Shown here piece by piece: positions 1,495 to 53,708 of a stretch of 64,000 nt of DNA. Under the pieces are notes generated by a model that was not told where the DNA came from, searched no databases, and saw only the letters and a list, made by a program, of their open reading frames with translations. Source of the stretch: Pseudocercospora fijiensis CIRAD86 (lineage: Eukaryota; Ascomycota; Dothideomycetes; Mycosphaerellales; Mycosphaerellaceae); NCBI RefSeq assembly GCF_000340215.1, contig NW_006921532.1:277844-341843 (forward strand). The letters run 5' to 3'. Positions within the stretch are counted from its first letter, which is position 1. Every line of letters begins with the position of its first letter. A program made the position numbers and the translations under genes.

Positions 1495-2320
1495 TCGATT
1501 GTTATAAAATAGTTAAAATAGCTGAAATAGAATGCTATATATAGTTGAAATGGAATGCTATATAAATGTGTTTTTAGTGTCTTTAGTTTGTTTAGTTTGT
1601 TGTAATGTTGCTATGCGAGAGAGTAGTATATTAGGCTGTTTCTCCTAGTATTACCCCTAGGGTAGTATTAGGATTTAGCCTCCTAGGGGTCGCCTAACTA
1701 CCTCTAGGAGCTTAGTTTAGTAGATTTTAGACAAAAGCCGCTCGGAGAGAGAGACTACAATCTCTATTTATACCTAGATCCTAGAAACTAGCTCGTATCT
1801 CCTTTAGCTAGGCAGGGGGGCGGTAGCCTTCTTTTTCTAGTAGAAGGCTAAGTACTGTCTAAGCGAGGCTGCGAACCTAGGAACGCCCTACCTAATTAAT
1901 AGGGGACTCCCCGGCTATCCGACCTATAAGCCGTATTTGCTATTAATTAATAGTCTTAGCAAACTAAGCAAGGCCGATAGGTAATTAGTCTATCTCCTCC
2001 TTAGGCGGGGCTTATCTCGAGTAAGCGGTGCTAAATAGGTCTTCGACCTAGAGCCGAGTCCTTAGAAGCTAGCTATAGCTATAGACTAGGCCCTAAGCTA
2101 TAATAGTCCTAAGGGTTTATAGCTTTTCGGGGTTAAAGCGATGCCCTCGTTAAGAGGTTTCTCTGCTTATCGTAATAGCCCCTTAAGATACTTTAGTATC
2201 GTCCGTATCGTAGGCTCTTATCGTGCCCTCGCTTCGGTTATAGCTATTCGTGCCTAGAGACCACCTTTAATATACCTAAACCTATTAGATATAAAGAGAT
2301 AGCCCTACCTTCGGCTCTAA
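1495..2320 (-). other. 5' leader of copy A3
   Basis: Untranslated stretch between 5' LTR and gag, about 0.8 kb, matching 9454-10261 of copy A1 on the opposite strand. It contains one 25-bp palindrome at 1646-1670. Directly inside the LTR (2320 leftwards) is TTAGAGCCGAAGG, a candidate primer-binding site whose unmutated form would begin T-TGG. Confidence 0.7.
1646..1670. repeat. 25-bp boundary palindrome, copy A3 leader
   Basis: Near-perfect inverted repeat (half-site TAATACTACCCC and its complement around one central base), about 150 bp upstream of the gag start. Confidence 0.85.
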
Positions 2321-4131: not shown

Positions 4132-4817
4132 TTAGTTATTATAATAAAATAATTAAAATAGTAATAAAATACTATATAAAAGTGTTTTTAGTAGATTTAG
4201 TTTATTACGATATTGCTATACGAGAAAGTAGTATAATAGGCTATTCTCCCCTAACAATACTCCTAGGGTAGTATTAGGCTTTAGCCTCCTAGTAGTCGCC
4301 TAGATACTACTAGAAGCTAAGTTTAGTAATTTTTAATAAAAAGCCGCTCGGAGGGAGGAATACTATAACCTCTATTTACTCCTAGATCCTAGAGACTAGC
4401 TTCCTCTTATCTCCTTTAGCTAGGTAGGGGGATAGGGGCCTTCTTTTCTTAGTAGAAGGCTAAGTACTATCTAAGCGAGGCTACGAATCGGGGAGTAGTC
4501 TACCTAATTAATAGAGGAACTCTCTAGTTATCTAATCTATACTCTAGAAGTTACTATCGATCGATAGTCTTAGCGGGATCCGCTAAGGTTAATAGGTAAT
4601 TAATCTATCTTCCTCTTTAGGCGACTAGTCCGCGTTACTATCCTATAACCGAGCCGGTAGGCGGTAGCTTATCTCGAGTAAGCGGTACTAAATAGGTCTT
4701 CGACCTAGAGCTAAGTCCTTAGAAACTAGCTATAGTTATAGACTATACCTTAAGCTATAATAGCTCTAAGGGTTTATAGCTTTTTAGGGTTAAAGCGATA
4801 CTCTTATTAAGAGGCTT
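4132..4817 (-). other. Leader of copy A4, interrupted by element B
   Basis: Collinear with the leaders of A1-A3, including the palindrome at 4252-4276. It breaks at 4818 and resumes at 36706. The last five bases, ggctt, are the target duplication of B. Confidence 0.8.
4252..4276. repeat. 25-bp boundary palindrome, copy A4 leader
   Basis: Same 25-bp module with several transitions relative to the consensus. The central TCCTAGGG and the flanking complementary arms remain recognisable. Confidence 0.75.
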
Positions 4818-8764: not shown

Positions 8765-8962
8765 TATTAGGACTAAAGAGGTTATACGTAATTAGTATAT
8801 AACCGGGCTCGAGTAAAGCTAGGGTCTCGATACCTTAGGTAGGGCTTAGCGCTTAGTAGTAGGCTAACTAGCCTGCCTTCCTCCTTCTCCTTCTAGTTCT
8901 CTATCGAATACTACTCGTACCTACTACTACCCTATCTACCTGCTAATATAACCCTTCTTATA
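8765..8962 (+). repeat. 5' LTR of element C (198 bp)
   Basis: Begins TATTAGGACTAAAG and ends CCCTTCTTATA, consistent with TG...CA termini converted to TA...TA. Pairs with 28306-28503. Confidence 0.92.
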
Positions 8963-9170
8963 TAGTATTCGATCTACCCTTTAAGGGTAGCGGCTAGATA
9001 GTTCTTATTTTAAGCTTTTAGCGGTATAGCTACGAATAAGACTAATCTAACTATATTACGCCCGAAGAACGGGATCTATACGTACTATTCTATCGAAACA
9101 ACCGTACTAATTATTAAGCAAGGCCTTCTATACGGCCTATTACACTAAGTTAAGTATACTAGACCGATAT
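8963..9170 (+). other. Leader of element C with candidate primer-binding site
   Basis: Starts directly after the LTR with TAGTATTCGATC, whose unmutated form TGGTATTCGATC would be a tRNA-primer site. It is followed at 8974-8990 by a perfect 17-bp palindrome (CTACCCTT, T, AAGGGTAG). The leader is cut at 9171-9174 by the CTAC duplication of copy A1 and resumes at 21449. Confidence 0.65.
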
Positions 9171-9174
9171 CTAC

Positions 9175-9453
9175 TATTAGCTAGTAACCGGCCCTATACC
9201 TATAGGCTAGTTTTGAGCCTATATAAGAGGCCTCCTTCTACATTATAGATAGAGCATCAACCTCGTATAGTATATTGTTTATATTATACTTCTATAATGC
9301 CTATATTATAGGGCTCTAGTTATTAGCCTAAACGATAGTCTCGCTATCCTATCTTACTAAACATAGCTGCCCGTATTGCTATAGGTTATATTACCCTCGG
9401 TAGCCTGTACTATTGCTACAAGTAGTAGTAGTAGTGTTGGTTTCCGTCCTTTA
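9175..9453 (+). repeat. 5' LTR of copy A1 (279 bp)
   Basis: TATTAGCTAGTAACCGG start and TTTCCGTCCTTTA end. Contains a (TAG)n microsatellite near its 3' end. Differences from the 21166 copy are transitions only, as expected from RIP. Confidence 0.93.
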
Positions 9454-10261
9454 TTAGAGCCGAAGGTAGGGCTATCTCTTTATATCTAACAGGTTCGGGT
9501 ATGTTAAAGGTAGTCTCTAGGCACGAATAGCTATAACCGAAGCGAGGGCACGATAAGAGCCTATAATATAGACGATATAGAAGTATCTTAAGGGGCTATT
9601 ACGATAAGTAGAGGAACCTCTTAACGAGGGCATCGCTTTAACCCTAAAAAGCTACAAACCCTTAGGACTATTATAGCTTAGGGCCTAGTCTATAACTATA
9701 GCTAGCTTCTAAGGACTCGGCTCCGAGTCGAAGACCTATTTAGTACCGCTTGCTCGAGATAAGCCCCGCCTAAGGAGGAGATAGACTAATTACCTATCGG
9801 CCTTGCTTAGTTTACTAAGACTATCTATACGATAGCAATTTCTAGATTATAGGTCGGATGCCTAGACAGTTCCCCTATTAACCGGGTAGATTGTTTCGGG
9901 ATTCGCTACCTCGTTCGGACAGTGCTTAGCCTTCTACTAGAAAAAGAAGGTCCCCGCCCCCCTACCTAGCTAAAGGAGATAACGATAGTTAGTAAAGTAG
10001 CTAGTTTCTAGGATCTAGGTATAAATAGAGATTGCAGTCCCTTCCTCCGAGTAGCTTTTATCTAAATTTACTAAACTAAAGCTCCTAGGGGTGTCTAGGC
10101 GACCCCTAGGAGGCTAAACTCTAATACTACCCTAGGGGTAATATTAGAAGAAAACAGACTAGCATACTATTTTCTCGCATAGCAATATCGAACCAAACCT
10201 ATAACATATACTAAAAACACTTTCCTATAGTATTTTATTTTAACTACTTTATAACAATCGA
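9454..10261 (+). other. Leader of copy A1
   Basis: No coding potential seen. Starts TTAGAGCCGAAGG (candidate primer-binding site after RIP) and includes the palindrome at 10122-10146, about 115 bp before gag. Confidence 0.7.
10122..10146. repeat. 25-bp boundary palindrome, A1 leader
   Basis: Arms TAATACTACCCT and GGGTAATATTA around the centre, in the 5' leader upstream of gag. Confidence 0.85.
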
Positions 10262-13200
10262 ATAAGCTCTAGCGAAAGCGAGCATTACGAATTAGCGGAA
10301 TCTTCGGAATCTAATAACCTACCGGACCCTATTAACGAAGAAATCAGGCGACGACTAGTTATTATAAGCGCTATCGAACTAGGGGCTATCGAGCCTTCTA
10401 CGCCCGAGGCCCTCTATAATGTCGTTATAAAGATAATTTAAGGGCAAACTAACCTTCTCCGTTAGAATAGGCGTCGCCCGCTAGAGCCGGGAAGTAGTAG
10501 GAACCCTTTGTTCGAAGGGTAGAACGCTACGGCGTACGTAGAACGCTTTAAGGACAACTTAACCGAGTACGGACTCGAAGAGGAGTCGGACTAGTACAAG
10601 GTCCGGTCCCTTACGAGGACTACTATTACTAAGCTTTACCGAACCCTTAGAACCCTAGTTAGCTACCTAGAAAAGGACGACAAGTCTAACGCCGACTAGG
10701 AGGTCTTTAAGTAGGCCTTTATAAGGGAGTATCGGGATCGCGATAGCCGTCGTATTAAAGGTAGTCGTACGTAGCTTAAGAACCTCTATATAGAGAGGCG
10801 TACCGAAGATAACGACCTAAAGGAGTACGTCCGCGAGTTTATTAAGTTAGCGGACGGCATCGACTAGTAGGACCTCGAGAATTCTTAGAGAACGAGGCTA
10901 CTCCTTAAAGGGTTGCCGTAGTCTACGGCTAAGCGTATCTTCCGTCGCTATAAGCTTAGCGAAGCTAATCCCGAGACCTTTAGGAAGTATAAAGAGGTTC
11001 TAGAGGCTGTTAAGGACGACATTAATAGCTCCGCCGATACGAAGAAGTTCATTTACGGCGAGGATAGGAATAACCTAGCTTAGGTAAAGAGCGACGCCTT
11101 AGGAAGTAGAGGACCTAAGTTCCTTCCTAAGTCGTAGAGTAGTCCTAAGACTGTAACTCCTACTATTACTAAGCACTCTTAGGACGTTGCGGACTTAGCT
11201 AAGTCCCTAGCCTAGCTTAACCTTAATACGAAAGCACTATAGCGAGTTAGGGAGGTTATTAATGCTAGTATACTAAAGGATGTGCTACCGGTCTACTAGA
11301 TTTCCGATCCTAACTACCCTAAGGCCCCTTTAGTTAATGTCTACGCTATACGAAAGATCTATTCTAACTTAGATAGCAAGTGCTAGATATGCGGCGGTTT
11401 TAAACATATTTAATTAGACTGCCCTATCTAGAAAGAGCTTCTTAAGAGGAAGCTCGTTATATAAGTAAATAGTCGGTTCTACTATACCGATACCGGCGAT
11501 AAGATTAACTTCGAGTAGGATCGCAGAGCTCCGAAGCTGCCTTAACTTAGGAGTCTTCTAGAGAAGAAGTATAGTAGCAAGATCGAGTTTAAGGATACTA
11601 GGAACAGTACCCTCGCCGCTATTGCTAAATGAGAAACTTAGAAGGTTAGGGTAAAATAGGTTAAGGAGCGGAGTAGTAATAGTACTACTAAGCCTATTAA
11701 AGTCAACTTTGTGTCTTAGGACCCGGACGCAGTTACTAATGTTTACGCGGTTACTAAGAACAGTATAGATGTCTACGCTGCTATAAGGTCCTAAACTTAG
11801 TTATCCTAAACCTAGTCCTAGGGTAAGGGCAAGAGCCCGTAGAACCCTACCCGCCCTAGTACGGCAGCCCTTACTAGGATACTTAAGAAGCAGGCAGCTA
11901 ATAAGGCTAAGAAACAGCGAGAATTAGTCGCTAAGACTAAGACACTCTAGATAGCTAAAGACCGTGCAACCCGAGCTAGTATAGCTACTCCGGAGGTACT
12001 AGAGACTCCCGATGTCGATATAGAGGATACTACTACCGACCTTAGTAGTACCCTAGGCCTAGCTAACCCGCCGGCCTATAAACGAAAGTTAGCCGACCTA
12101 AAGAGCTTTCGCTTTAATAGGTATATAAAGAGGTATAGTGCCGGGCCTACTAACTCTTACGATATAAAGGCAAATGCTCTCTTCTAGGCTTTATAGTTCC
12201 TAGACCTTAAGTCTAACATGTCTATAGGAGAGCTTCTAGTATACGGTTTGCCTACTAACCTGTTCTAGAGCCGGATTCCTAACGATGCTACCTTTATAAA
12301 AGACCTTGCAGCCCTCCGACGTAAATAGGGGCGAGAGGACTATATCGACGTCTCTTCCCTATAGTTCCTTCCTAAATTTTTAGGGGCCTAGGAGTTAGTA
12401 GAAGGCGAATTAGTAACCTACGAGAGCTAGGAGACTATCGATAATACTAACGAAGAGGGGATTAAGGAGATAGGCCGAGGGGATAATAATAATGCCGACC
12501 CTGCTTCGGTTTTAGTTTCTATTAAGGCTGTCCGATTTACTAGCTAATAAATCGGTCGAGTAGGACCTCCTCGACCTAAGGAACTTTACTCTATCCCTAA
12601 TAATATAGACCTTTCCGTAGTTACCCGTTCCTTTGCCGTCGTTCCCGCTATCTATATTTAAGTTACTATCGGAAGCTATAGTTAGTAGTTGCTAGCAATG
12701 CTTAATAATAGTTTAGAGTTACTTATTATAAGTAAGCGCTAGGCTAAATAGCTCCGACTACTAATAAACAGAGATATTTCCCTTAGTATATAGGGAGTAA
12801 ATAGGGAGGTTGCGCTAGTAGGTACCTGCTACAATGTTATAGTAGACGCTTTCGGCATATGCTTTTCCTTTACCTTCTAGATTGCCGCTAACCCGAATAC
12901 GCTAATTATTCTAGGTCGTCTATAGTCTCGTATAACCCGGGATGTCTAGCGCAACTGCGACGATAGCTCCTAGGAAGGAACTATTACTAACTAGAAGGGT
13001 AACCGAGTCGTATTTACTAGTTATATCGGAAACACTAGCTATAAGTCCTACGAGGATATCCTTACTGCTTCTAAGCGCTCTTCGGGAAACGCTATAGCGC
13101 GGTTATAAGACCGGCAATCTGCGCTATAAGTTAGTATAGCTTAAATAGGTTATATCTAGAGGTGCGCCGCTCCGTACGTTAAGGCAAGTTTCTAGGCTCT

Positions 13201-13339
13201 ATACTAAGGAGGCGAATGCTCGAAGCGATAGCGAGTATAACAACCCAGTAACGACAACCTAGTATACGAATCTCGGTAATAATACTATCGCAAGCATCGC
13301 CGCCGGAAGCGGATCTATCCGAGCCCGAATCCGAACTAA
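10262..13339 (+). pseudogene. gag: gag-protease ORF of copy A1, RIP-inactivated
   Basis: Starts at ATA (inferred ATG) followed by a Ser/Glu-rich N-terminus. About 1,025 codons. A capsid-like helical region spans residues about 90-330. An intact zinc knuckle C-x2-C-x4-H-x4-C lies at 11381-11422 (residue about 374). A Lys/Arg-rich linker follows, then a retropepsin-like domain near residues 800-930, where the active-site segment reads L-N-N-S, probably mutated from an Asp-containing motif. It would supply the particle shell and maturation protease. About 60 in-frame TAG/TAA codons result from RIP. The frame ends at TAA 13337-13339, with a second in-frame TAA at 13358 inside the palindrome. Both stops are conserved in copy A2. 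Confidence 0.88.
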
Positions 13340-13357
13340 CTAATTAGAGCGCCGAGC

Positions 13358-13382
13358 TAATACTACCCCGGGGGTGTTATTA
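13358..13382. repeat. 25-bp boundary palindrome, A1 gag/pol junction
   Basis: Read in the gag frame its first codon is TAA, giving TAA TAC TAC CCC GGG GGT. It lies between the gag-protease stop and the pol frame. Confidence 0.9.
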
Positions 13383-13383
13383 G

Positions 13384-16300
13384 GAATCTAACGTTTTCGC
13401 CGGAATTATAAATTAGGATTACTAGCTATATACCTACCGACTTAAGGAGACTTCTAGTAAAGTTTACGCGCTATTCTACTACGCTAATCTCCGGGCCTAA
13501 CGTTAAAGAGAGAGGGCTCGGGTATTACGAGCGGTTAGTATATATACCCTATATAAGAGGGTAGCTAATAAGATTAAGCCCGTAAAGGGCAGCGTATATA
13601 TAACCGATAGGTCTAATCCTAGCGGAAATCCTGACTAGCGACAAAAGTGCCTTAACCGCGAAGCGATGTTAATACCTAGGGATAGTCTATACGACTAGAG
13701 GTATATTACTAAAAAGTTCTCCGCTATTCCTAGGGGATCGAGGCTAACGCCGGAGAGACTAGCGAATACTAAACCTAGCATCGAGCTTTCGGATCTCGAA
13801 CTAGATTTGCTATACGAGCTTCTATACAACCGCGAAGCCGTATTAGTATATAACTTCACGTATCTAGGCAGGATTAACCCGGAGGTTGCCCCTCTATAGA
13901 GGATCCGAACGATCGAGTATAAGCCTTAGGCTTATCTAGGGTTTAAGTTAAACCTAAGCCTAAGAGGTATAGTTAAGGATATAATACGGCAGCGTGTAAA
14001 GGCTAGCACCTTAGAGCCTTCCTATACCTCGTATCGCAATCTATACTTCCTAGTTTAGAAGAAGATAGCTCCTAGGGAGCTAAAGAAGTATCGGCTAATT
14101 AACGCTATATAAAAGTTTAATACAGTTACAATTAGAGATACTAATCTTCCTCCGGAGACTAATAGGTTCTTAGAAGCCTTTACTAACTATATAGTAGCCT
14201 CGCTAGTTAATATATTCTCGGGCTACGACTAGATACCTCTCTACCCTAATAGCCGGGACCTTACTAGTTTCGAGACACCTCTTAGGCTATATAGACAAAC
14301 TACCCTTCCCTAAGGGGCAACTAACTCCGTAGCCTAGTTCGTTCGTATTATAAACCAAGTCCTCGCGGCCTATATCTCCTATATAGCGATGCCTTTCCTT
14401 AACGACATCGGCATTAAGGGCCCTAAAACTAGGTACGATAATAAAGAAGTAGAGCCTAGCATCCGTAGGTTCTTTCTTAAACACATTTAGAACCTCGATA
14501 GTGTCCTCTACGACCTAGAGCGAGCTAACCTAACGGTGTATAGGGAGAAGCTTTAGCTCCTATATAAACGAATAAATATTGTCGGGTTTGTAACTAATAA
14601 GAATAGCCGCTATCCTAACAATATACGGGTCCTAAAGATTGTATCCTAGCCCGACCCTACCTACTAGAAAGATGTCCGGATCTAGCTTAGAGTAGTCTCC
14701 TACTTCCGTATCTAGGTCGAAAACTTTGCGTTAGTATACAAGCCTCTATACGCCTTGCTTAAGAAGGATACAGAGTTTAAATAGACCTCCGTTTACTAAG
14801 CCGCTAAGAATAAGGTTACTAAGGCACTTATTAGCGCGCCTACGCTTACCTCTATTAACTACTCGGAAGGCGTAGGTCTACTAATTGTTACTATCGACTC
14901 GAGCGGGGAAGGCTACGGCGAGATACTAATATAGTATAATCGTAAGGAGCCCTCCTTACGTTACCCTATCCGGTACGAGTCCGGTCTATAGAAACCTATC
15001 GAGGCCCGATACGATACTAGTAAGCGAGAGTGCCTTAGTGTCTATAAGGCTCTTAAGAAGTTCCGACCTTAGCTCTTTAGAGTGTTCTTTCGCCTAGAAG
15101 TCGACGCTTAGACGCTAGTCTATTAGCTTAACCGTATAGCCTCCGACCTGCCTAACTCTACGATAGCTCGGTAGGTTGCCTAGATCTATTTGTTTGATTT
15201 CGACGTCTTCTATATTCCTAGTAAGAAGTATACTAGACCGGATAGCCTTTCTAGAAGGCCTACTATAAAGGAAGACATCGCCGAGATAATAGAAGAAGAG
15301 AATATCGACGCGGTTATTAACCGTACCTTCTTTACTACCTTCTATATTAACGCTATGCCGGTAATCGCTAGGTCTACTGCCGACGACTAACCTAGTAACT
15401 AGCCTAACGAAGACCCTACTACTAATAGCGAGGACTAGGACGACGCTAAGGCGGGCGAACTAGGTAGGGATAATATCCTTAATAGAGTCTACTCCGACGA
15501 CTCCTATAATATCGCCTACTTCCTTACCTATACGAAGAGAGCTCCTAGTCTATTAAGGAGTTAATACCGTCGTATTATTCGCTATTCTCGGAGGTTCCTT
15601 ATTAAAGATCGCATCCTTTAGCGATAGGCTATAATTAATGCACCGCTCTAGCGTATTATTAACGATCTAGTAGCCCGATAAGAAATCCTTCGCTCCGTTT
15701 ACGATAAGCTCGGCTACCGGGCGGCGGAGGGCACCTTCGATATCCTTCGTCGACGCTACTAGTAGGACGGCGTATAGGCTAATATCTCCCGCTACTATAA
15801 GAGCTGTCCTAAATGCAACTCTAGGAACAGCTACTAGCGTCTAGGAGAGCTTCGTATCCCTACTACCTAGTTAGTTAGGGAGCGGTAGTATAGCGATAGG
15901 GTCTATCTTAGCCGTAATAATAGCCTATATATTATTCGAGAGGGTCTTTCTCGATAGCCGGAGGCCTATTATTTCTATAAAGGTTACGGTACTATTAATG
16001 CCCGTAATATAGCTATCTTCCTATTTAAGGATCTGTTTTGCCGCTAGGGAATACCTTACGAGGTTATCTTAGATAACGCTACGAACAATATAGCTAAGGA
16101 GGTTTAAGCGCTACTTGTTTCGTACGGGGCTAAGAACGTTCGCATCTCCCTATACTATCCCTAGTCGAATACTATTGTTAAGCGCGGCTATCGGTCGTTA
16201 ATTAATGCCCTATCTAAGATAACTAATAGTAGCGATAGATTAGTTCCTATTTCTACCCGCGTCCTAGCCCTTCTCTAGGCGGACCGAACTACTATTATCG

Positions 16301-17097
16301 ATACGACTAGACTTATACTAGCGGAACTTATAATTAGGAGGGACGCCGTTCTTCCTATTAAATTGTCCTACCGTACGTACGGCGTTTACGATTAGGGGTC
16401 TATTTGTACTAGGGCAGACCTTCTTACCCTATAGGCTAAGGCTCTTAAGGATATAACTACGACTTCTTAAGAGGGTCTTGCTCGACAACGTCGGCTTCGG
16501 GAAGAGGCGAAGCAGTATTTTAATAACTATAATACTATTAATTAGGAACCTCTAAAGGTTAGCGATATAGTCCTTCTATACCGGTCCGAACTAGAGTATA
16601 GTTACTCTTACAAGCTAGCCTTTAAGTAGAAGGGTCCTTATAGAGTAAAGGAGGTCCTTTACTCGGGTTCCGTATACCTTCTTTAGGAGCTAGATAGTAC
16701 TACCTTAAAGCACTCTTACCCTCGGGCTAATCTAAAGAAGATCGTTAAGTTACGCGAACCTACCCGCCCTCCGCCGACCGAGGAGGAAGTTAGTGCCTCT
16801 ATAGACCCTCTACCGTCCTTAGATACCTATCGGGAGGAGGATCCTACCGCTATTATAGATCCTATTCTACCTAAGAACTATGCCTATCCCTAGGTTCGTC
16901 TTAGTAAGCTATTAGGAATAACTTAAGAATAGAGGGAGGGTTATATACGGATTAACTATATATAGAGCGTTTCCGATGTTAATTCCGATTCTAATAGTAA
17001 ACTAGACTTCTAGCTATCTAACTCTAACTCCGAGGAACCTAACTAGTCTAGCGACGAAGACTGCCTAGAATTATAGCTAGATCCCGAGACTAAATAA
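13384..17097 (+). pseudogene. pol: pol ORF of copy A1 (RT, RNase H, integrase), RIP-inactivated
   Basis: In a different frame from gag. The start is not visible. RT spans 13900-14700; the metal-binding box reads F-L-N-D (AAC at 14401-14403) where copy A2 keeps F-L-D-D. RNase H is at 14850-15180. An R-P-D-S-L-S-R-R motif (15234-15257) marks the connector before integrase. Integrase has C-P-x-C near 15810 and its core at 15890-16350, with the expected catalytic Glu now Lys (AAG, 16180-16182). No chromodomain was found; the C-terminus is acidic and Ser-rich. The end at TAA 17095 is uncertain: in copy A2 the frame can be followed to TAATAA within the next palindrome. Confidence 0.88.
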
Positions 17098-17364
17098 TTG
17101 CTTGCTCTTCCTTGCCTCTACCTGCCTCTACTACGTTACTTCCTTACTCTTATCGATCGTTCTCTACGCTATTAATGTAGTACCGCCCTATACCTTTAGT
17201 CCTTACCTATTATCTATTCCTACTAATGTTTATACTCTCGTTTGTTGCTTTTAGTTTATCCTATTGTTATCTTTTACTTTTGCCTTTACCTTCGATTAAT
17301 ATTGCTATAACTTTATTCCTTCGCTCTTGTTTCCTTAGATAGAACTATATAAGGCGTGTTTTTC

Positions 17365-17389
17365 TAATAATACCCCGGGGGTAGTATTA
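17365..17389. repeat. 25-bp boundary palindrome, downstream of A1 pol
   Basis: Begins TAATAA in the pol frame. The complementary arms are perfect on the 3' side (GGGGTAGTATTA). Confidence 0.9.
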
Positions 17390-17394
17390 GGAAG

Positions 17395-17796
17395 ATAGCC
17401 GAACCTAACCCCTCTACCCTTCTAGGACTACTTCCCTCTAGATTCCTAGACTCTAGCAACCTTCCTTAAGTAATAACGATAACAAGATACTCTACTAGAG
17501 GATGTTCCTACCCTAATTAGTACTAGCTATATAGGATACTAAGAAAGGGAGGATCCCTCTCCCTTCCTAGCTCTTAGATAGATATAGCAACCTAGGCCTA
17601 TAGCCTCTAAGAATAGGGACCTTAGGCCGCTAAGCTTAGTATCTAGAAGAAAGAAGAACGCACGGGCTACGTTTATATGCCTGCTACTATAAAAGGTAAT
17701 ACTGCATCTATAACGATAGTACTATAGGCTAATATAAGCTGCGCTAGGCCTAGGCGATTTGCTCCTAGTTGCCGAGCATCTCTAGAGAAAAGCTAA
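17395..17796 (+). pseudogene. Possible small ORF between pol and ORF3 in copy A1
   Basis: Starts with AAG-ATA-GCC six bases after the palindrome; ATG by RIP reversal would give a good initiation context. It runs 133 codons to a TAA that is the first codon of the next palindrome. Ten TAG/TAA codons interrupt it. Copy A2 restores one of them to CAA, and its other differences (Tyr to Cys, Tyr to His) are RIP reversals. Copy A2 has one extra A near the end, which shifts the frame before the stop, and the other two frames have only slightly more stops (13-14), so coding status is unproven. No similarity recognised. Confidence 0.35.
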
Positions 17797-17818
17797 TACT
17801 ACCCTAGGGGTGTTATTA
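17794..17818. repeat. 25-bp boundary palindrome, upstream of A1 ORF3
   Basis: TAATACTACCCT arm with GGGGTGTTATTA on the other side. About 380 bp before the conserved ORF3 coding block. Confidence 0.9.
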
Positions 17819-18178
17819 GTCCCGCTAGCCTTACTACTATAGATTACTACTAGGTACTCGAACTAACTAGTTATATTTCGAGTGCGCGGGAATCTACGAA
17901 AGCTAGAGGTTAATAAAGGCGCGTAGTCGCTACTAGCAATTAGCTAGATCGATTATTAAACTTTAGCCGCCCTACTAATAAAGGAGTCTCGTATATAGCT
18001 TTACTTTTTAGGGTCTATATATAATCGTTATCCGTTTGCTTTACCGGAATATACGGACTACGCTACCTTCGTACCCTATTTAAAGCGAGCCTTCTAAGCT
18101 CTTTCTTCTACTCGAGTACTAACTAACTTACTACCGCCTATCCCCCCCCTCTCTTCTATCTAAACCCTTTAATTATTA

Positions 18179-21037
18179 TTAACAAGCCACGAACGTTTTT
18201 GCAAGCTCGTTACTAACTCCTTTCCGCTCCGGTCGACTAAGATATCTTCCGGCGCCCTAAATCCGCTAGGCGCTAGTAGCAGTAGTAACCTACTAGCTCT
18301 AAACCTAGGCGTACTAGTCCCGATCGAAGCCCCCTCCGATAGCGCCTTAGCTACTATAACTAGCCTCGAGCACTGCTTCTAGATCGTTACCGCCCTTAAA
18401 GACCCTTAAGAGAAGATCTAGAACGCTCGCACCCTACTACGCGTTATTAATAGGAATATTAAGAAGGCTACTATCTTAGTTACGTATAGTATAAACAACT
18501 TGCGTTAGTCTATCGGTAAGCGTGTCTTTAAGCGCGAGGTCCTTAACGATATAGATATCGAATAAGCCTTTCCTATCGTCTATAGCCTCGAGACGGCCGG
18601 TACCTAGATTCGCTTACGCTTTAAGACCCTCGACTAGGCCTTCGAATATTAGGGAGGACTAAGTAGTCTTCCTAAGAGCCTTGTTAACTTCGCCTACGGT
18701 AGATAAGAGCGTATAAAGTAGGTCTCTTCGTTCGTTAATAAGTACAAGGTCCGTCGTTAAGGCGCTAAGTACCTTTCCCGCACTATAATCTATCGTATAT
18801 CTACCGCTAGTAAGAAGGTAGGCAAGTAGTTACTTAACTTGTCCTTTACGCTTAACGACTTTACGATATCCTACTAGAAGCGGCACTACGATGCAATTGT
18901 CTAGATCGATCTTAATATATAGACAACTAAGGATCTACTAAAAGAGAAGGGCTATCGTATTAATAGTATAGGTTTTATTGTTAAAGGTTAAGAGGCTCCT
19001 ATCGTTAATGTCCTTAAACGTAAGGCTCTTCGCCTAGAAATAGAGGCCGATACGGCTACTAGTCTCGCGCTCGCTACGGAGATATAGGCTTAAGACCGTC
19101 GCTCGACCCGTAACCGTAAGGTCCCTTAGGAAGTTAAGGACGAGCGCGCTAAGGCCGAAGCAGCGCGCAAGAAGGCATTGTATGCTCGCTAGGCCCTCCG
19201 CAAGGCTACTAAGAAGTACAGCGCCCCTTCTAGGGCTAACTATAGTACTAACTATAGTAACTCGGATGTTAATATACTAGATATACTACTAGAAGATGTC
19301 TCCTCCGAAGGCTCCTTTAGCGAGCGTAGAGATAGAGGGCTCTCGCCGATCCTATTAACTAAGAACATCTATAGTTCTTATAAGGGCGACTCTATTACGT
19401 ACCTTATTACTAAGATCGATATAGTTCCTAAAGCCGATATAGGCAAAGCTCCTACCGCCCTATCTATCTATTAATAGCTCGACGACCTTAGTAAGCTAGG
19501 AGAAGAGCCGTTCTCTATATATACTAACTATATTAAGAAGGCCGCTAAGGTCTATAGTCTCTATGCTAGTACTAAGGCGATTGTCCTCGTCGGCCGCCTA
19601 TTAAAGATTAGTCGCGAGGTTCCTAATTAAGACGCCTTCGCTGCCTTTAAGGCTAATTAGGCCTATACTAACTAGTTTCCTAGACGCCCTGTTGCCGCCC
19701 CGATATCTCTAGGACTCTACGCGTTTAACCCTACTAGTACTATTACTCGCGCCCTTACGCTAACGGATCGCTAGAGCAAGTTCGTTACCGGTATCCTTAG
19801 CTAAGGCACTTCCTTCGACCGCTTTCGCTAGACTAGCAATACTATCTTCCCTTAAGTCTTTAGCTAGTTACAAGAGCCTCGTAGAGTATATCTTCCTTTC
19901 CTTATCGACCTAATATAGGAGGAGTTTGAAATATACCTTTAGTATATGCGTGCGATGCCTAAGTCTAAGCAGGAAGGCCGCAATACCCTTTAAACTTATA
20001 GTATAAGTAACTAAATCGTCCGCTAGTACCCTGCCCTATAGCTCTTAGCTATCGCCCTTCGACCTAATTATATATACGAGCTTATCTCTGTCCCTAAGCC
20101 TACTAAGTTCTTTAAGATTAGCGGTACTTATAAAAACTGTCCTTCTAAGGAGTCTGCTCGTCTCGGATAAGATATAGTTAAGCTCGCAGCTAGCGAGGGT
20201 ACTAGTTACCTACGTATCAAGGTCTGTCTTATATCTAAGGATAAGACTAGCTGCTCTACTATTATCGAAGGCATGTATTAGCCCGAGGTCTTTACGAACT
20301 AGGTTAAGAAGCTTAAGGCTCGTAGCCTAGTCCCGCTAAGCAAAATCGGCAAGCTTACTAATAAGTACCTTACCGACGACGACCTCGACTATATATTCGA
20401 TAGTTAGCCTAATAGTAAGGGGCGCAAGGCGGAGTAGATCCTTAACCCTCTAAAGGAGTACGAAGTCTCTGTTTAGATACTATACCTACTATATAGTAAT
20501 CTAAAGACTAAGAGCAACCGTATATTAATTAACCTAGGCTACTCTCGCGTTATCGACGGTACTAAGATTAAGGGTTACGACAACTTAACCGTCGCCGAGG
20601 TTGCTAAGGCGCACCGCAATCTAACCGCCCTTCTAGGTTCGAATACCTTCGTACCGTTCCCCTTCCCTACTGCTATCTTAGTCGAAGGCCTTAGTTACAT
20701 CTCCGACGCCCTAGTTAGTAGGATTCCTTAGTTAAGTTACGTTATTTAGAACGAAGTTAAATAGATCCTCTAGCTTAATAACGAGGGACTTAAGGAATAT
20801 TTATACGATTAGGAGAATGCTACGAAGGAAAAGGCTGCTAACCTCCTCGTTAATTAAGCTTTCTATAAGGGATAGTACTTCGGTACTAATAGCTTTAACG
20901 TATACGGAGGAGATTTCGAGAACCGACTAGTAGATAAGGTTATTGCTAGTAAGGATTACGGCGCGTTAAAGCAATAGTAGGTCTATATAGTGTTGCTTAG
21001 GAAGTTGTTTTTGTATAATTATAGTATCTAGGATTAA
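18179..21037 (+). pseudogene. ORF3 of copy A1: unassigned protein of about 950 codons, RIP-inactivated
   Basis: Continuous frame from about 18179 (start uncertain; the frame may extend up to 17813) to TAA 21035-21037, the first codon of the last palindrome. I recognise no domain. Visible features: a hydrophilic Ser-rich N-terminus, a Trp/Leu-rich block, a strongly basic Ala/Lys/Arg segment near 19130-19220, an acidic stretch after it, and a well conserved C-terminal third containing L-G-Y-S-R-V-I-D-G-T-K-I and P-F-P-F-P (20531-20680). No CCHC, protease, DDE, chromodomain, signal peptide or convincing transmembrane anchor was seen, so an envelope role is unsupported. It is conserved as protein in copy A2. 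Confidence 0.7.
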
Positions 21038-21059
21038 TACTACCCCGGGGGTGTTATTA
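21035..21059. repeat. 25-bp boundary palindrome, end of A1 ORF3
   Basis: Read in the ORF3 frame it gives TAA TAC TAC CCC GGG GGT, the same register as at the end of gag. Confidence 0.92.
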
Positions 21060-21149
21060 CGGAGTTCTAAAAAGCGCCTTAGCTAAGAACGCTAAGGATG
21101 CATACATGTTTGTTTTAAGCGCGCAATATAAAGCGTGTCTAGTTAGATA

Positions 21150-21165
21150 CGAAGAAAGGGAGGGA
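21150..21165 (+). other. Polypurine tract of copy A1
   Basis: GAAGAAAGGGAGGGA directly upstream of the 3' LTR. It confirms plus orientation. Confidence 0.75.
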
Positions 21166-21444
21166 TATTAGCTAGTAACCGGCCCTACACCTATAGGCTA
21201 GTTTTAAGCCTATATAAGAGGCCTCCTTCTATATTGTAGATAGAGCATCAACCTCGTATAGCACATTGTTTATATTACACTTCTATAATGCCTATGTTGC
21301 AGGGCTCTAGTTATTAGCCTAAACGACAGTCTCGCTATCCTATCTTGCTAAACATAGCTGCCCGTATTGCTATAGGCTATATTACCCTCGGTAGCCTATA
21401 CTATTGCTATAAGTGGTAGTAGTAGTATTAGTTTCCGTCCTTTA
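21166..21444 (+). repeat. 3' LTR of copy A1 (279 bp)
   Basis: Pairs with 9175-9453. Followed by CTAC (21445-21448). Confidence 0.93.
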
Positions 21445-21448
21445 CTAC

Positions 21449-22852
21449 TAATTCCGCTATATCCGTATCTTAGGGGCTAATAATACATTATTAGTGCTAC
21501 CCCTTATTACAATAGCCGGCTTATTACGAAACAATAATAATAACAACCGCGGCGCCGCTAGTAGCGCTAGCAAAAACAATACTAGTAGTATAGCACCTAC
21601 TAAAGTGCCTACTAAAGCACCTGCTAAAGGGCCCGCTACTAAGCCTACTAAAGAACCTATAATTCTAGGTAACGACCTAGAATTGCCTATCGACGACATT
21701 CTTAACAATATTGTTAATCGTCGATATAGCTAACTAGCCTTTAGTCCTTAACTAGTAGGGAGACTTTAAGAAGCTACCTAAAACAGGCTTACTGCCCTAC
21801 GTTAAGAATAGTAGCTAAAGGATAACCTCCTCGAGCTCCGTCGCCTTTAGGAAGCCCTAACGACTACTACTAAACCTATAGCAGGACCTTCTTTACTACC
21901 TATCTAAAAGAAGGATACTAAACTTAAGGACTATACCGTATTTAACGGCTCTAGTCGCAAGCAATATAATAACTACATACGTAATTATAAGCTTAACTAA
22001 CGAAATATACCGAGGGCTCTTCTAGACGACTATTTATTAGTTGTCTACGCTATATAGTACATTAATAGCGACCTAAAGCGCATATAGGATAACTATTTCG
22101 ACTCCCTTAATAACTAGACTGCTGTTTAGTAGCAGACCTATAAAACTATTATACTAGATACCCTTAGAAACCCTATACTAAGGCAATAACATACTTAGGA
22201 TCTATATCTTCGAGCTAAATAGAAGACTAATCAATCGGCTCGCTTATTTAAGGCCTATTTAAAGACCCTCGAGGATAACCTTCCGGCTAAGGCTAATTCT
22301 ATATAGATCTCTAAAATACGCCCTAAGCTTAGGTAGGAGCTTATTCTCGAATTGGACCGCCGCCGTATATTTAAATAGGCTAACCTAATATGTATTTAAT
22401 TTATAGTCGAGGTAGAAATAGCTAAACGAGCTGTTTAACTCTAACGAAGACTAGAATCGAGGATCCGACTAACTAGTACTAACCGTAGTAACCGTAGTAG
22501 CCGCGGGGGAAGCTAAGGTTCCTACTATAATAACAATACTAATAATAGAAACAGTAACGACCGTAGAAGAGGCCGTAGCCGGCGGCTATATAGAGGGGGC
22601 CGCGATAGGGGCCGTAGAAGGGGCTCGTATCCCTATAGTACTAATCGCTTAACTAACAATAGTAGCAATAGCGGCTATAGCAACCCCCTAACTAGATTAA
22701 AGTGCTTTAATTGTAATAGTACTAGCTATCTACTAGGCTAATGCGACAAACCTAAGGACTAGGCCCGAATTAACCGTACTACCGCTAAGTACCGAAAGCA
22801 CCTCTTAGCCGCTAACGCTATCCCTATAGACTAACCTTCGAAAAAAGAGTAA
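21449..22852 (+). pseudogene. gag: gag of element C, RIP-inactivated
   Basis: The leader of C resumes at 21449 and the gag frame can be followed from about 21494 to TAA 22850-22852. An N-terminal Asn/Thr/Pro/Ala-rich linker (21530-21670) precedes a capsid-like segment (21930-22450). An Arg/Gly-rich basic stretch (22500-22620) and a zinc knuckle at 22703-22744 follow. In the knuckle the fixed His is Tyr (TAT), the change RIP makes from CAY. A hydrophobic open frame on the other strand (21457-21708) overlaps it but is a low-complexity shadow. Confidence 0.8.
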
Positions 22853-25800
22853 GCGCCGCACTAACTATTAGCCTTATACGGCGTAAAACTATCGATATTA
22901 TGCTAGCTATTATACGTACCTATCTTATATAGGATATATATAGAGATAACTATAAGACTAAGGTTATACTAGATCTAGGAAATTCAGTTAGTGCCCTTAT
23001 TAGCTATTGCCTAGCTAAGCAATTAGACCTCCGACAATTGCCTAGAACTAATATACTAACCCTTACTTAGTTTAATAACGCTCGGTACTTAACCTATAGG
23101 GCCTACTATATTCCTATAGTTCTAAAGAACGATCTCGGAAATAAACGCCTACTAGACTTTACTACCTACGTAGTAGATATAGATAACCTATATAGGGGAG
23201 CTACTATTGTTATTAGCAACCCTGTTCTTAAGTACTATACTGTAGTTATAGACTTAGGCAGTTAATAATAGCGATTTAGAATCGCTAGGAGAGAGGATAT
23301 TAAACATATCGATATTAGCGAGTGTCCTAATAATATTAGGGTCCTGTTTATTAGCAACCTTATACTAACCCCCGCCTTAGCTAATCTAACTACCGACCTA
23401 CTCGGTAGTAATAACGATGAACCTATGCCCCCTAATAGTATAGACCCTAAACAGCTTAAGTATATTAAAGGACGGAAACTAATACTACTACTACTACTAG
23501 CAGTAATAGTATAGGCTACCGAGGGTAATATAACCTATAGCAATATAGGCAGCTATGTTTAGTATAATAGGATAACAAGACGGTTGCTTAGGCTAATAAC
23601 TAGAGCCCTACAATATAGGCATTGTAGAAGTGTAATATAAACAATATACTATACGAGGTTAGTGCCCTATCTACGATGTAGAAGGAGGCCTCTTATATAG
23701 GCTTAAAACTCAGCCTAGGTGTGTAGGGCCGGTTACTAGCTAATAATATACTAGAGCCTATTCGAGAAACCTACATTAATGTATTTAAACACTACCTAGC
23801 ATCGACATTGCCTATATTTAAAGAGACGGATTATAAGATTAATATTATAGAGGGCAAGGAGGTTCCTTTTAGACTACTCTACAACCTTAGTAAGCGCGAG
23901 CTTGCTATATTGCGTAAGTATCTAGAGGAAAACCTAGCTAATAGCCGGATACGGTATAGTAATAGCCCTACTAGCGCCCCTATCCTATTCGTACTAAAGA
24001 AGGATAGTAGCCTACGCCTATATATCGACTATCGTAGGCTTAATACTGTTACTATTAAAGACCGCTATCTACTCCCTCTTATTAATAAGACCCTCGATCG
24101 CCTTTCTAGGGCCTACTTCTATACTATACTAGACATTAAGGATGCGTACTATCGTATCTGTATTCGCAAGGGCGACGAATAGAAGACGGCCTTCCGTACT
24201 CGCTATAGCTATTTCGAGTACTTAGTTATACTATTCGGCTTAGCTAATGCCCCTATAATATTCTAGTCCTATATTAATCGGGCCCTTTCGGGCCTATTAG
24301 ACTATCTCTATATAGTTTACCTAGATAACATCCTAGTTTATATATATTTACCTAATATTATAGAATACTAGGCCGTAGTGCGTAAGGTCCTCGACCGCCT
24401 ACGAGCCTATAGACTATATTACAAACCTTCTAAATACACCTTTGCTACTAAAGAGGTATTATTCCTTAGCTTCCTTATTTCAACCGAGGGTATTAAGGCT
24501 AATCCTAACCGGATTAAAACAATTACTAAATAGCCTGTTCCTACGTCTATTAAGGAGCTTTAATTATTCTTAGGTTTTACTAACTTCTACCGTCGGTTTA
24601 TTAAGGGTTATTCGAGGCATATAATACTACTAACTAAACTTACTAAAACCAAGGCTAATCTATCTAGAGAGTTTAGATAGACTAATAAGATATAAGCCGC
24701 TTTTAACGGTCTAAAGAGACGATTTACTAAAGTCCCCTTATTATACTATTTCGTACTAAGTAAGCAGATCCGAATTAAGACTAACGCTTTATAGTTCGCT
24801 ATATCGGCTATTATATTATAGCAATTAGATAATAACTATTACTAGCACCCGATTGCCTTCTTTTTACGAAAGATAATCGATATAGAACGTCGATATAAGA
24901 CCTACGAGTAAGAGCTCTTAGCAATCGTAGAAGCCTTTAAGTATTAGCGCTACTATCTCGATAGTACTTAGTATACAATTTAGGTCTATACGGACTATAA
25001 CAACCTCCGTAGAATTACGAAGGTTACTAGGGTTATAGGTCGATAGGCTAGATAGGCCGTCTACCTCGCTAGGTTCGATTTTAATATATTATATTAGCTA
25101 GGCGTAAGCAACCCTACTAATAGCCTATCGAGGCGGCCTAATTACGATAGCGAGACTTAGCAATCTATTAATTTATTGTTTCTAACCCTATAGTATAAGA
25201 TTGCTATAGCCCGTATTGTTAATAAGCAAGTGTAGGATAAGCGGACTTCTAGACCCCGCGGCGGTAATAAGTACTATAGCGGAGTTGTCGTTCTTCTAGT
25301 ACGCGTTAGAAAGGACGTAGATCGCTCGAGCTATAATAACTCGATTAAAGACATTGCTATCTATAGCAATAGCCTATATAGCGATAGTGCTTTAGAAGAG
25401 GTTGTAGTAGTTCCGGCTACTAGTACTATTAGATATATATAATACGTACCTCGTTCGATAGCGAGGGTGCTATTAAATAACCTTATAAATAGGGATAGTT
25501 AATCGTTTATAGATAAGCTATTACGTACTTAGTAGAGGGACGCCTTTGCTATCGAGCGCATTAATAGGCTTATAAGTAGGCGAGCGACTCGATCTAGTAA
25601 GAGTAATAACAATTAGTCGATCGACAATAAAGGTTACTTAAAGTTTAAGGGCAGATATTATATCCCCGCTAAACAATCGATTAGATAAGAGCTTTTAAAG
25701 AGGCACCACAATAGTAAGCTTGCTAGTTACTATAGTATAGAGAGGTCGCACGAGCTACTATCGCGTATATACTACTAGCTAAATAGTAAGCGGTATATAA

Positions 25801-27060
25801 AAGAATATATATAGACCTGCGTAGTATACTAGCGAGTTAAAGTACTAAAGTACTTACTATTTAGCGAGTTGTCTTTACTTCCTGTTCCTAGGAAGCTATT
25901 TATAGAACTTATAATAGATTTTATTATAGGCCTTCCTCCTACTAAGCGTAGGGGTAGTAAGGATATATATAATACTATCCTTGTTATAGTAGATCGATTT
26001 ACTAAAGGCGCTCGATATATCCCGGCGCGGAAAGACTAGACTGCTATTAATATAGCAGAAGCGCTATAGAGCAACGTCTTCTGTGCCTATTAGGGAACCC
26101 CTAAGGGGATAGTATCTAATCGTAGATCGATACTAACATCTTACTATTAGAGCGAGATTTGCTTATAGCTAAGACTAAAGCATCGGCTATTAATAGCCTT
26201 CTATCTATAGACTAACGGTTAAACTAAGAGGCAGAATGCTGCCCTATAGTAGTATCTACGTAGTTACATTAACGAGAACCCTAACGACTAGGTCAACCTC
26301 CTATAACTAGCTAAATTTGTATATAATAATAGTATCTACTTATCTACTAAGGTGTTACTATATATAGCTATAATAGGCTAGAACGCTACTATACTACAAG
26401 ACCCCCTACCGCTCGAGGCCGAGCGTAAGGAAAGGGAAGCGCGTTAAGTATTAATACCTAAGACACTAGCGGCTATTAAGAGGGTTTAAAAGATGCGGGA
26501 AATTTACGCTAAGTTAGCTAATAAACTAGCAAAGGCCTAGGTATATTAGAAGGCCTACTATAACAAACACTATACGCTAATAACTTTTAAGCAAGGCGAT
26601 ATAGTTATACTAAGTACTAAGAACCTCCGTATCCGCAAACACCTATTACCTAATAGTAAAACAAGACCTAAGCTCGCACCGAGATACATTAGCCTATTCC
26701 GCATTCGAGAAGTTAAGGGCTCTTCTATATAGGCCTATTAGTTATAGCTTCTACCCTATTATACTATCTATAATACCTTCTATATATCCCTCTTTAAACT
26801 ATACTACTAGCGCGAAGGCGATAAAGCGCCTACTAAGTTAGAAGAAGTCTTAGCCGATAGTAAAGAGCTATAGTCTATAGAACGCATCCTATAGTATCGG
26901 ACTAGGAAAGGTAAGAAGGAGTACCTATTAAGATAGTAAGGCTATTTGCCTAAATAGGACTCGTAGGAGGCTAAAGACTCTTTTAAAGATATAACTAAGT
27001 TGTTAGATAAGTATTAGACTAGTATAAAGAACAAGAAGAAGGCTAAGGGCCTATAATGCC
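22853..27060 (+). pseudogene. pol: pol of element C (protease, RT, RNase H, integrase, chromodomain), RIP-inactivated and split by a solo LTR
   Basis: In the next frame relative to gag. The protease active-site region is near 22966-23010 (I-L-D-L-G-N-S). The solo LTR 23466-23745 interrupts the protease-RT linker. The RT fingers/palm block 23808-24182 is the only long uninterrupted frame. The catalytic box reads Y-L-D-N (24318-24329), the second Asp lost. RNase H is at 24760-25100. Integrase has its second Asp as Asn (26118-26120) and its Glu as Lys (26226-26228). A chromodomain (26860-27010) keeps the Lys-Glu-Tyr-Leu-Leu and Gly-Tyr core. The ORF stops around 27050-27060. Confidence 0.88.
23466..23745 (-). 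repeat. Family-A solo LTR inside element C
   Basis: Complete LTR of about 280 bp in minus orientation with no internal sequence, flanked by a perfect 4-bp duplication ATAT (23462-23465 and 23746-23749). It is therefore the product of LTR-LTR recombination after a separate family-A insertion. Confidence 0.92.
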
Positions 27061-27069
27061 GCCTAGGAA

Positions 27070-27094
27070 CAATACTACCCCTAGGGTACTATTA
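27070..27094. repeat. 25-bp boundary palindrome, downstream of element C pol
   Basis: CAATACTACCCC, T, AGGGTACTATTA. The same module as in family A but in a different retrotransposon family, 10-20 bp past the end of pol. Confidence 0.85.
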
Positions 27095-28305
27095 GCTAAC
27101 TAATTAGAGGCAAGCAATTGTTAGCAACAAGGACAATAAGACTATACTACTATAGTAAACGCGCACTAAGTATTAATAAGCGCGCTATAACGCGTTAATC
27201 GATTACCTACTCTTCTAAAAGATATCTACCTCTTTACTAACGCGCCCTATAGGTCCCTCTCTTATTCCCTCCTTCTATCGAGGCCTCGAGGCCTAGGCGA
27301 TTAGCGAGGACGACGCGCGTACGCGCAAATAGTAATAATAATAATAATAGTAACGGCGTCGCGCCTATACTAAAGGGCGGTACGGCTAGCGCGGCTATAT
27401 TAGTAATAGTATTATAGGATATATTACTATTCGAAGAAGGAAGACGACGCGACTATATCGGTAACGGTATTGCTAATATTATTATTAGTTAAAGAAGGAA
27501 ACCGAAAGCAAGGTAAAGTTAGCGCTAAGACGGCTAGCGCTGCTATTATTAATATTACCTAGTTGCTACTATTGTTAACCTTACCTATATTAAAACTTTA
27601 AGGCCGAGTTAAAACTTTAAGCCGCCTAAAAGATTAAGCGACTAATAGACTAACTAAAAGCAAAAACTATAGAGCTAAGCTAGCCGGGGTCGATCTTGCG
27701 GATAATAGGTTACTCCTCGATCTATCTAACCCTTTAAGCGAGGCGAACCTCTACTACTACACTTATAATAGCCTTTACCTATAGAAACTAGAAGAACTAA
27801 GTTTTTTAAAAAGATATAATTAGTTAATACTTAAAGGCTATCAAACCTAACTAATTAGGGCTAGTAAAACTACGATAGTAAATAATAGCCCTCGTAATAA
27901 TAAGAGCAACCCTCGGAACGGACAAACCCTCGGAGCGGACATTTCTAGGTCTTTTAGAGTAGACGCAAAGAACTCGGAACGATATTACTTAGAGCGGAGG
28001 TAGGGCTGTAATACCTCGTACGTCTACCTATTATAGTAGGGAAGACGCGCCTATATTATAATTAGTCGATAGCCCTTAATTCTTATAGCTCTATATCCCT
28101 TTACTTTATTATATATAAGGATAGCGCAGCTAGAGTTAGACATTGTATTAGAAGGTAAGGTTTGATATAGTTACATATTCGGTAGTTATACGTTTAATTT
28201 AGCGCGGACTAAGCGGCTTATTAGACCTACTAAGTTAGTAGCAATAGAGGTTAAGACTAGAATAAAGACCGGCTACGAGGGCGCGGCCTTTAGAAGGAAA
28301 GCGTA
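27095..28305 (+). other. 3' non-coding region of element C
   Basis: 1.2 kb with no assignable ORF. It contains a 14-bp perfect palindrome AGGCCTCGAGGCCT (27281-27294), a second GCGCGTACGCGC (27315-27326), a TAA/TAG-rich microsatellite (about 27330-27350) and repeated segments rich in CGGCGC. A minus-strand frame starting at ATG near 28148 could encode a small Cys-containing peptide, but support is weak. It ends with the purine-rich AGAAGGAAAGCG tract before the LTR. Confidence 0.6.
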
Positions 28306-28503
28306 TATTAGGACTAAAGAGGTTATATGTAATTAGTATATAACCGGGCTCGAGTAAAGCTATAGTCTCGATGTCTTAGGTAGGGCTTAGCGCTTAGTAG
28401 TAGGCTAACTAGCCTACCTTCCTCCTTCTCCTCCTAGTTCTCTATCGAATACTACTCGTACCTACTACTACCCTATCTACCTACTAATATAACCCTTCTT
28501 ATA
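28306..28503 (+). repeat. 3' LTR of element C (198 bp)
   Basis: Matches 8765-8962 with transition differences only. Followed by TTAGG. Confidence 0.92.
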
Positions 28504-45599: not shown

Positions 45600-45878
45600 T
45601 AAAGGACGGAAACTAATACCACTACTACCACTTATAGCAATAGTATAGGCTACCGAGGGTAACATAACCTATAGCAATATAGGCAGCTATGTTTAGCAAG
45701 ATAGGATAACGAGACTGTCGCTTAGGCTAATAACTAGAGCCCTATAATATAGGCATTGTAGAAGTGTGATATAAACAATGTGCTATACGAGGTTAATAAT
45801 CTATCTACTCTATAGAAGGAGGCCTCTTATATAGGCTTAAAACTAGCCTATAGGTGTAGGGCCGGTTACTAGCTAATA
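45600..45878 (-). repeat. 3' LTR of copy A2 (279 bp)
   Basis: TAAAGGACGG start, GCTAATA end. Abuts a minus-strand purine tract (GAAAGGGAGGGA, 45879-45890). Confidence 0.93.
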
Positions 45879-45986
45879 TCCCTCCCTTTCTTCGTGTCTA
45901 ACTAGACACGTTTTACATTATGCGCGCTTAAAACAAATATGTATGTATCCTTAGCGCTCTTAGCTAAGGCTATTCTTAGAACTCCG

Positions 45987-46011
45987 CAATAATACCCCCG
46001 GGGTAGCATTA
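45987..46011. repeat. 25-bp boundary palindrome, end of A2 ORF3
   Basis: On the minus strand its first codon is the ORF3 stop (TAA TGC TAC CCC), the same register as in A1. Confidence 0.88.
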
Positions 46012-49228: not shown

Positions 49229-49253
49229 TAATAACACCCCCGGGGTAGTATTA
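49229..49253. repeat. 25-bp boundary palindrome, upstream of A2 ORF3
   Basis: Reverse complement of the A1 module at 17794, centred on CCCCCGGGG. Confidence 0.9.
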
Positions 49254-49653: not shown

Positions 49654-49658
49654 CTTCC

Positions 49659-53660: not shown

Positions 53661-53665
53661 ATTCC

Positions 53666-53690: not shown

Positions 53691-53708
53691 GCTCGGCGCT
53701 CTAATTAG

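Follow-up and report, generated by a model that had tools for sequence, protein, structure and literature searches.

Two gypsy families (A and B) and two copia subfamilies (C and C′) of LTR retrotransposons in Pseudocercospora fijiensis, a fungus of banana leaves, share a palindrome that can be identical over 25 bases between the gypsy and copia families. Its numbers and orientations differ between these carriers, with five sites in A against a single one observed in each of B, C and C′, and the placements found at the family level are coding boundaries or spacers between ORFs. On sequence grounds, we tentatively favor a palindromic boundary element that is portable, being exchanged between elements, and that probably works as a hairpin in the RNA. 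Cis-elements are normally thought to be private to one element lineage; if the proposed reading is true, competing gypsy and copia retrotransposons share expression signals like parts.

A palindrome common to gypsy and copia elements

The DNA analysed (hereafter, the window) is a stretch of 64,000 nucleotides at C1:277844-341843, and the genome searched for further copies of the palindrome comprised 73.9 Mb in 30 contigs. One protein encoded in the window matches a P. fijiensis CIRAD86 protein at 100% across 46% of the query. The motif takes the form (C)TAAT-NNN-ACCCC-N-GGGGT-NNN-ATTA(G), or CTAAT-GCT-ACCCC-S-GGGGT-GYT-ATTAG in less-mutated copies; more precisely, less-mutated A and C copies read TAATGCTACCCCGGGGGTGTTATTA and B copies TAATGCTACCCCCGGGGTGCTATTA, often flanked by C and G. 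Within the window, 11 sites were found at ≤3 mismatches (0 expected from 100 shuffles) and 13 at ≤4 mismatches, the added ones being those at 4252 and 49659. Genome-wide, there were 1114 sites at ≤2 mismatches and 1219 exact matches to TAATNNNACCCCNGGGGTNNNATTA, each against a backwards control of 0. Viral and prokaryotic collections contained no exact match to a degenerate form of the motif, and scans with Rfam and for tRNAs gave no matches. The repeat-rich parts of the window bear a strong signature of RIP (TA/AT ~2, with CA and TG depleted) and, since the repeats are RIP-mutated, transitions were discounted when copies were compared.

Among the 1219 matches, the first 68 consecutive sites on C1 were classified individually. 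All 68 lie within A, B, C or C′ and none outside, with 56 placed by sequence (A 42, B 6, C 7, C′ 1) and 12 only by their spacing to neighboring A sites. One set of fetched loci had been picked because the site was present. Sites preceded by G, previously unseen in A or B, number two in the genome and correspond to an A site (L080) and one C place. With B, C and C′ carrying the motif too, the idea that it is private to family A was rejected. The first-pass annotation had considered that hits might be scattered without relation to ORF ends, or that the motif might represent terminal repeats of an independent mobile element. Scatter was not seen, as the 68/68 placement indicates, and no palindrome-bounded unit was observed among these sites; yet the motif has moved between elements. 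As no such unit was seen at the 68 sites, an independent element bounded by the palindrome was discarded, and so was an identity as the termini of a DNA transposon or MITE, given also the single sites observed in B, C and C′.

Family A is a Ty3/gypsy LTR retrotransposon, based on its LTRs, target duplication and the order of RT, RNase H and integrase. Element A1 (9175..21444, plus strand), delineated by its repeats, by reading its ends and by Pfam matches, has LTRs of 279 bp each (9175-9453 and 21166-21444), a 4-bp target duplication (CTAC) and a purine tract before the 3′ LTR; its pol yields Pfam matches to RT, RNase H and the integrase zinc-binding domain. Four of its palindromes are in plus orientation: P1 in the leader, 669 nt past the 5′ LTR (10122..10146), P2 between gag and pol with TAA in the gag frame (13358..13382), P4 in the spacer before ORF3 (17794..17818), and P5 (21035..21059), which in A1-type copies ends ORF3 with an in-frame TAA. 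P3, in the spacer after pol (17365..17389), is on the minus strand, its asymmetric arms being in reverse orientation, and its dyad extends to TTCC...GGAA in most copies. Element A2 (45600..57876, minus strand; 4-bp duplication CTAG) carries palindromes at 45987, 49229, 49659, 53666 and 56904. The leader palindrome is also present in the truncated copy A3 (1646..1670, minus strand) and, in degraded form, in the truncated copy A4 (4252..4276, minus strand). All ten A1 and A2 coordinates in the first-pass annotation, as well as its leader sites in A3 and A4, proved correct, while a further window site, at 27070, was absent from its list and belongs to B.

A1 sits inside element B, a chromodomain Ty3/gypsy retrotransposon (8765..28503, plus strand, interrupted by A1) with 198-bp LTRs (8765-8962 and 28306-28503) and a 5-bp duplication (TTAGG), which encodes a knuckle, protease, RT, integrase and chromodomain as judged by eye from an X-for-stop translation. 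The B palindrome (27070..27094, plus strand) lies 13 nt past the pol stop in the window copy and 13-30 nt past it in 42/45 aligned rows, with three rows unparsed and with the window copy and L011 counted twice. In 22 B copies that had not been selected for carrying the palindrome, it was always present, without a transversion in its 25 columns; the sample included 20 fetched copies from 40 listed places, skipping those known from motif lists. The neighbors of the palindrome are nearly as conserved in B as the palindrome itself. Directly upstream, at 27045-27069 and in many B copies, is a degenerate TAATG(T/C)TAC-TATTA stretch that contains the pol stop TAA and resembles a copy of the palindrome that has lost its central part.

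In the copia elements, the motif occupies two different positions. In family C it separates the CCHC knuckle from the protease, is read in frame as NATPGVLL and is translated through without a stop; this was seen in 21/21 aligned copies, namely L012 and 20 of the 40 places listed. In the related subfamily C′, first seen as the 3′ end of L114, the motif lies at the pol end in antisense orientation; an alignment of 21 3′ ends, comprising L114 and 20 of 40 places scored with a query that itself contains the motif, showed it present in 10 and absent from 11, two of the motif-free ends (L133 and L134) aligning poorly on one side. The C′ pol frame enters the palindrome in one register and meets a stop inside it in 10/10 copies. 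A search by distance for ten C′ gag regions recovered five, all of which lack the motif at the C position. Two C copies read at both ends (L107/L125 and L055/L128, paired by coordinates ~3.6 kb apart) have the gag/protease site and lack the 3′ site. C and C′ differ by presence or absence of the motif, with sequence substituted and without a clean target duplication; variation elsewhere in the linker leaves no clean empty site between them. The homologs retrieved for C came from plants, insects and metagenomes and were distant, and their linkers were uninformative on the insert. Beside the C′ palindrome of L114 (521-1025), we observed a tandem duplication of ~250 bases that is 93% identical.

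Sites relative to the reading frames of family A

Three reading frames, all on the plus strand, were delineated in A1: a RIP-interrupted gag-protease ORF with a CCHC knuckle (10240..13360, start approximate), identified by codon-position bias and frame-preserving indels; a RIP-interrupted pol ORF (13360..17100, ends approximate); and ORF3 of ~960 codons (18150..21037, start approximate), for which there was no Pfam match and no homolog at E 0.001. Transversions between A and its subfamily A′ fall mostly at third positions of the expected frames over ~11100-13200 and 13500-17100.

The first-pass annotation had read the palindrome in the same register at the ends of gag and ORF3, supplying an in-frame TAA to both. 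For gag this was borne out. When six A′ copies were compared with A1, indels between 12950 and P2 cancelled or were multiples of three, so that the frame is kept to P2, and the P2 codon in this frame is TAA in 13/15 copies and GAA in 2/15. The ORF3 frame is likewise kept to P5, the sole indel between 20650 and this site being +6 in five A′ copies, and TAA stands at P5 in 7/7 A1-type copies. Among A′ copies, however, only 3/8 have TAA and 5/8 have CAA, which argues that the ORF3 stop at P5 is not a fixed feature; together with net indels just past P5 that are multiples of three in 3/5 A′ copies, CAA at this position suggests that A′ ORF3 may run on. The sites previously described as following pol and preceding ORF3 sit more loosely than this wording implied. 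The pol frame breaks from 17105 in 4/6 copies and at 17207 and 17278 in the other two, in all six ahead of P3 (17365) by ~90-260 nt, and the ORF3 frame settles ~350 nt past P4 (17794). The frame indels thus make P2 an exact ORF end and P5 an ORF end in A1-type copies only, and place P3 and P4 in one long spacer and P1 in the leader, leaving three of the five A sites (P1, P3 and P4) away from any ORF end.

Using approximate boundaries, the chance that 5/5 sites fall in the ~2875 noncoding of 12284 bases is ~0.0007, and the chance that five random noncoding placements fill all four A spacers is ~0.04. Two of the three motif frames hold a stop in either orientation, and a stop at an ORF end is therefore not telling alone.

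In less-mutated copies, P2 reads TAATG, with TAA in the gag frame and ATG in the pol frame. Fixed transversions over 13383-13697, sorted by pol-frame position, comprise 7 at third, 3 at first and 1 at second positions (22/23 rows used), a third-position bias after P2 that favors coding from the putative P2 start codon. The eighth codon from this ATG is TAG in 12/12 A1-type copies, and later stops are common to both subfamilies; these shared stops, in RIP-mutated copies, leave a pol start at the P2 ATG putative.

Conservation, arm pairing and flanking sequence

Comparison of the A subfamilies revealed 0/121 fixed differences across the five sites versus 91/1454 in their flanks (Fisher p 0.0009), where fixed differences are transversions or gaps, subfamilies comprise 2-9 copies each, and three P3 rows whose identity was intermediate are left out. 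Without the rows fetched for the tested site, the counts were 0/121 and 102/1461 (p 0.0004), and with transversions alone the difference was weak (p 0.02-0.03 over the two versions of the test, p 0.03 being that for 0/121 versus 51/1454). No difference between the A groups was found in the P3 region.

The palindrome, described as near-perfect, is imperfect: TAAT and ACCCC are symmetric, but the middle triplet of each arm (GCT, AAC, AGC and others) is often unpaired, and because of these triplets a strict hairpin, with its arms paired throughout, was rejected. There are 82 sites with G or C at both outer bases; the 50 of them that were listed all have C-G or G-C and none C-C or G-G, and one-sided end changes (T...G, C...A) were also found, as RIP predicts. 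The arms of one copy, L108, are fully matched, unlike those of its relatives. Imperfect palindromes are known to undergo correction of one arm with the other as template; the matched arms of L108 suggest such correction, rendering the covariation weaker as proof of selection. Predicted RNA hairpins are moderate, at -7 to -16 kcal/mol, and a fully matched variant reached -22.9, all values being computed without a shuffle control. P3 and the C′ site, which are in the opposite orientation, pair more weakly as sense RNA.

Two C′ copies, L120 and L123, resemble B for 34 nt past the palindrome, 28/34 of these positions being identical to L025. For L120, the alignment score against B was reached in 0/500 shuffles for 5/6 B copies and in 2 for the other; for L123, it was reached in 0/500 for 4/6 B copies and in 1 and 14 for the others. 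The other motif-bearing C′ copies have no such 34-nt B-like continuation, and left flanks of C′ and B mostly showed no match beyond chance. The flank common to B and the two C′ copies argues that the palindrome passed between superfamilies, and we regard it as a direct sign of gypsy-copia transfer. A common origin of the A and B sites, as judged by their flanks, was rejected (best 4/300 shuffles in 40 comparisons). A 14-mer, CTAACTAATTAGAG, occurs at 13336-13349, just before P2, and at 27096-27109, just after the B palindrome; it stands on opposite sides of the two sites and may be a RIP product.

Precedents and candidate roles

Several known systems resemble parts of this arrangement. The non-LTR retrotransposon SART1 uses coupled termination-reinitiation at UAAUG, as described in PMC5972666. 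The likeness is that two ORFs of a retroelement are joined by a stop-start overlap, with RNA structure located there or downstream, and a UAAUG overlap of the SART1 type is indeed found at P2 in less-mutated A copies. In contrast to SART1, A is an LTR element, the A hairpin arm itself contains the stop-start, the A motif recurs at four further places in the element and is found in other families too, and reinitiation at P2 is a prediction. Sireviruses, i.e. plant Ty1/copia elements, have an inverted repeat at gag/pol along with other conserved noncoding motifs (PMC2829016). There, a conserved inverted repeat at the gag/pol junction of an LTR element is proposed to act on RNA, whereas the P. 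fijiensis sequence is common to gypsy and copia elements. Sirevirus membership was rejected, as A and B are gypsy elements of an ascomycete host. Fungal GalEa copia elements, according to PMC5445492, possess a Conserved Hairpin Site directly after the 5′ LTR that replaces the primer site. Both cases concern a conserved palindromic hairpin in fungal LTR elements, but the first A site is 669 nt inside and the others are at or near ORF ends; with P1 this far past the LTR end, identity of the A palindrome with the GalEa site was rejected.

A search of the literature by half-sites and general terms retrieved no description of the motif, the sole half-site match being an unrelated influenza paper; the string "palindrom" is absent from the main text of PMC4981457 and PMC3562529, and "motif" and "ORF" are absent from PMC13041039. 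Unlike bacterial mobile palindromes, the sites examined here are in a eukaryotic nucleus, confined to few retrotransposon families and at fixed positions. Such bacterial palindromes (Rickettsia RPE, REP/REPIN) are short, occur in many places and sometimes lie in frame in coding sequence.

Taken together, the stop-start at P2, the third-position bias behind it and the SART1 and Sirevirus precedents lead us to prefer an RNA boundary element, with passive insertion next. As we picture it, a short palindromic cis-element is common to unrelated P. fijiensis LTR retrotransposons and passes between them, at least once along with 34 nt of neighboring sequence; it would be retained close to cistron boundaries or right at them, and there end or link reading frames. 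It would most likely act on RNA, as a boundary hairpin. At the A gag/pol junction, the 5′ hairpin arm contains the overlapping TAATG and could thereby mediate coupled termination and reinitiation; at the other sites, the hairpin may provide a stop or a processing boundary. The sequence itself shows that the motif is shared, where it lies, that the copia subfamilies differ in having it, that B and C′ have a flank in common and that gag ends in it; RNA rather than DNA as the readout, any effect on translation or processing and the mode of movement are what we infer here. The bolder proposition of a portable punctuation of the eukaryotic nucleus, namely a 25-27 bp hairpin that gypsy and copia elements swap and that ends or couples reading frames, including through UAAUG, we consider doubtful.

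The first-pass annotation had proposed a punctuation system for one multi-ORF transcript. Placement at boundaries and in spacers, the gag stop inside the motif and the greater conservation of the A sites relative to their flanks agree with this proposal. Its restriction to a single transcript does not fit with four families or subfamilies carrying the motif, with three of five A sites off ORF ends, with the absence of the ORF3 stop from most A′ copies read, or with the placement in C, inside an ORF and without a stop. The boundary reading offers a concrete test of how a three-ORF fungal LTR element makes its later proteins.

A real, if uncertain, possibility is that the palindrome is a passive insert, arising through template switching or repair and surviving only where harmless, as it would be in a spacer, in a linker or at the end of an ORF. 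This would account for an identical 25-mer across gypsy and copia elements, its in-frame tolerance in C, the occurrence of both orientations and the ORF3 stop absent from most A′ copies read; the presence/absence pattern of C and C′, the 34-nt flank common to B and two C′ copies, and the five copies in A without clear flank sharing with B also fit. It sits less easily with the finding that all 68 sites taken in a row belong to A, B, C or C′ (12 of them assigned by spacing only), with 0/121 versus 91/1454 fixed differences and with the ~0.04 chance of filling all four A spacers, and neither a clean empty site nor a target duplication was found.

DNA instead of RNA could be the readout if the two TAATNNNACCCC half-sites formed a dimeric binding site for a host or element protein that acts in transcription or chromatin. 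The symmetry of TAAT and ACCCC around a triplet that is often not complementary, the use of both orientations and the ability of the end pair to change on both arms together are in line with such a site, yet nothing about such a site would explain its overlap with a stop codon or its presence inside a copia ORF; given also that none of the 68 consecutive sites is outside retrotransposons, we hold this to be unlikely. Far less probable still is a dimerization or packaging signal whose hairpins pair between two genomic RNAs. The dimer initiation site of retroviruses is a palindrome, and self-dimers of the motif are predicted at -29 to -59 kcal/mol (values computed without a control); the A sites, however, include gene ends far from the leader, and the single sites seen in B, C and C′ are all outside the leader. 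The retroviral dimer initiation palindrome is also discussed in PMC5445492.

Other features of the window were recorded alongside the retrotransposons. Gene islands with little RIP at 60081-61148 and 37451-39433 hold a FAD monooxygenase-like gene and a glycosyl hydrolase family 3 gene, the latter spanning two adjacent open stretches on the minus strand. Between element B and a gene island, a RIP-mutated repeat array (31277-35994) consists of 300-nt copies spaced ~0.8-1.1 kb apart, and offsets of 25 and 53 bases are numerous in it.
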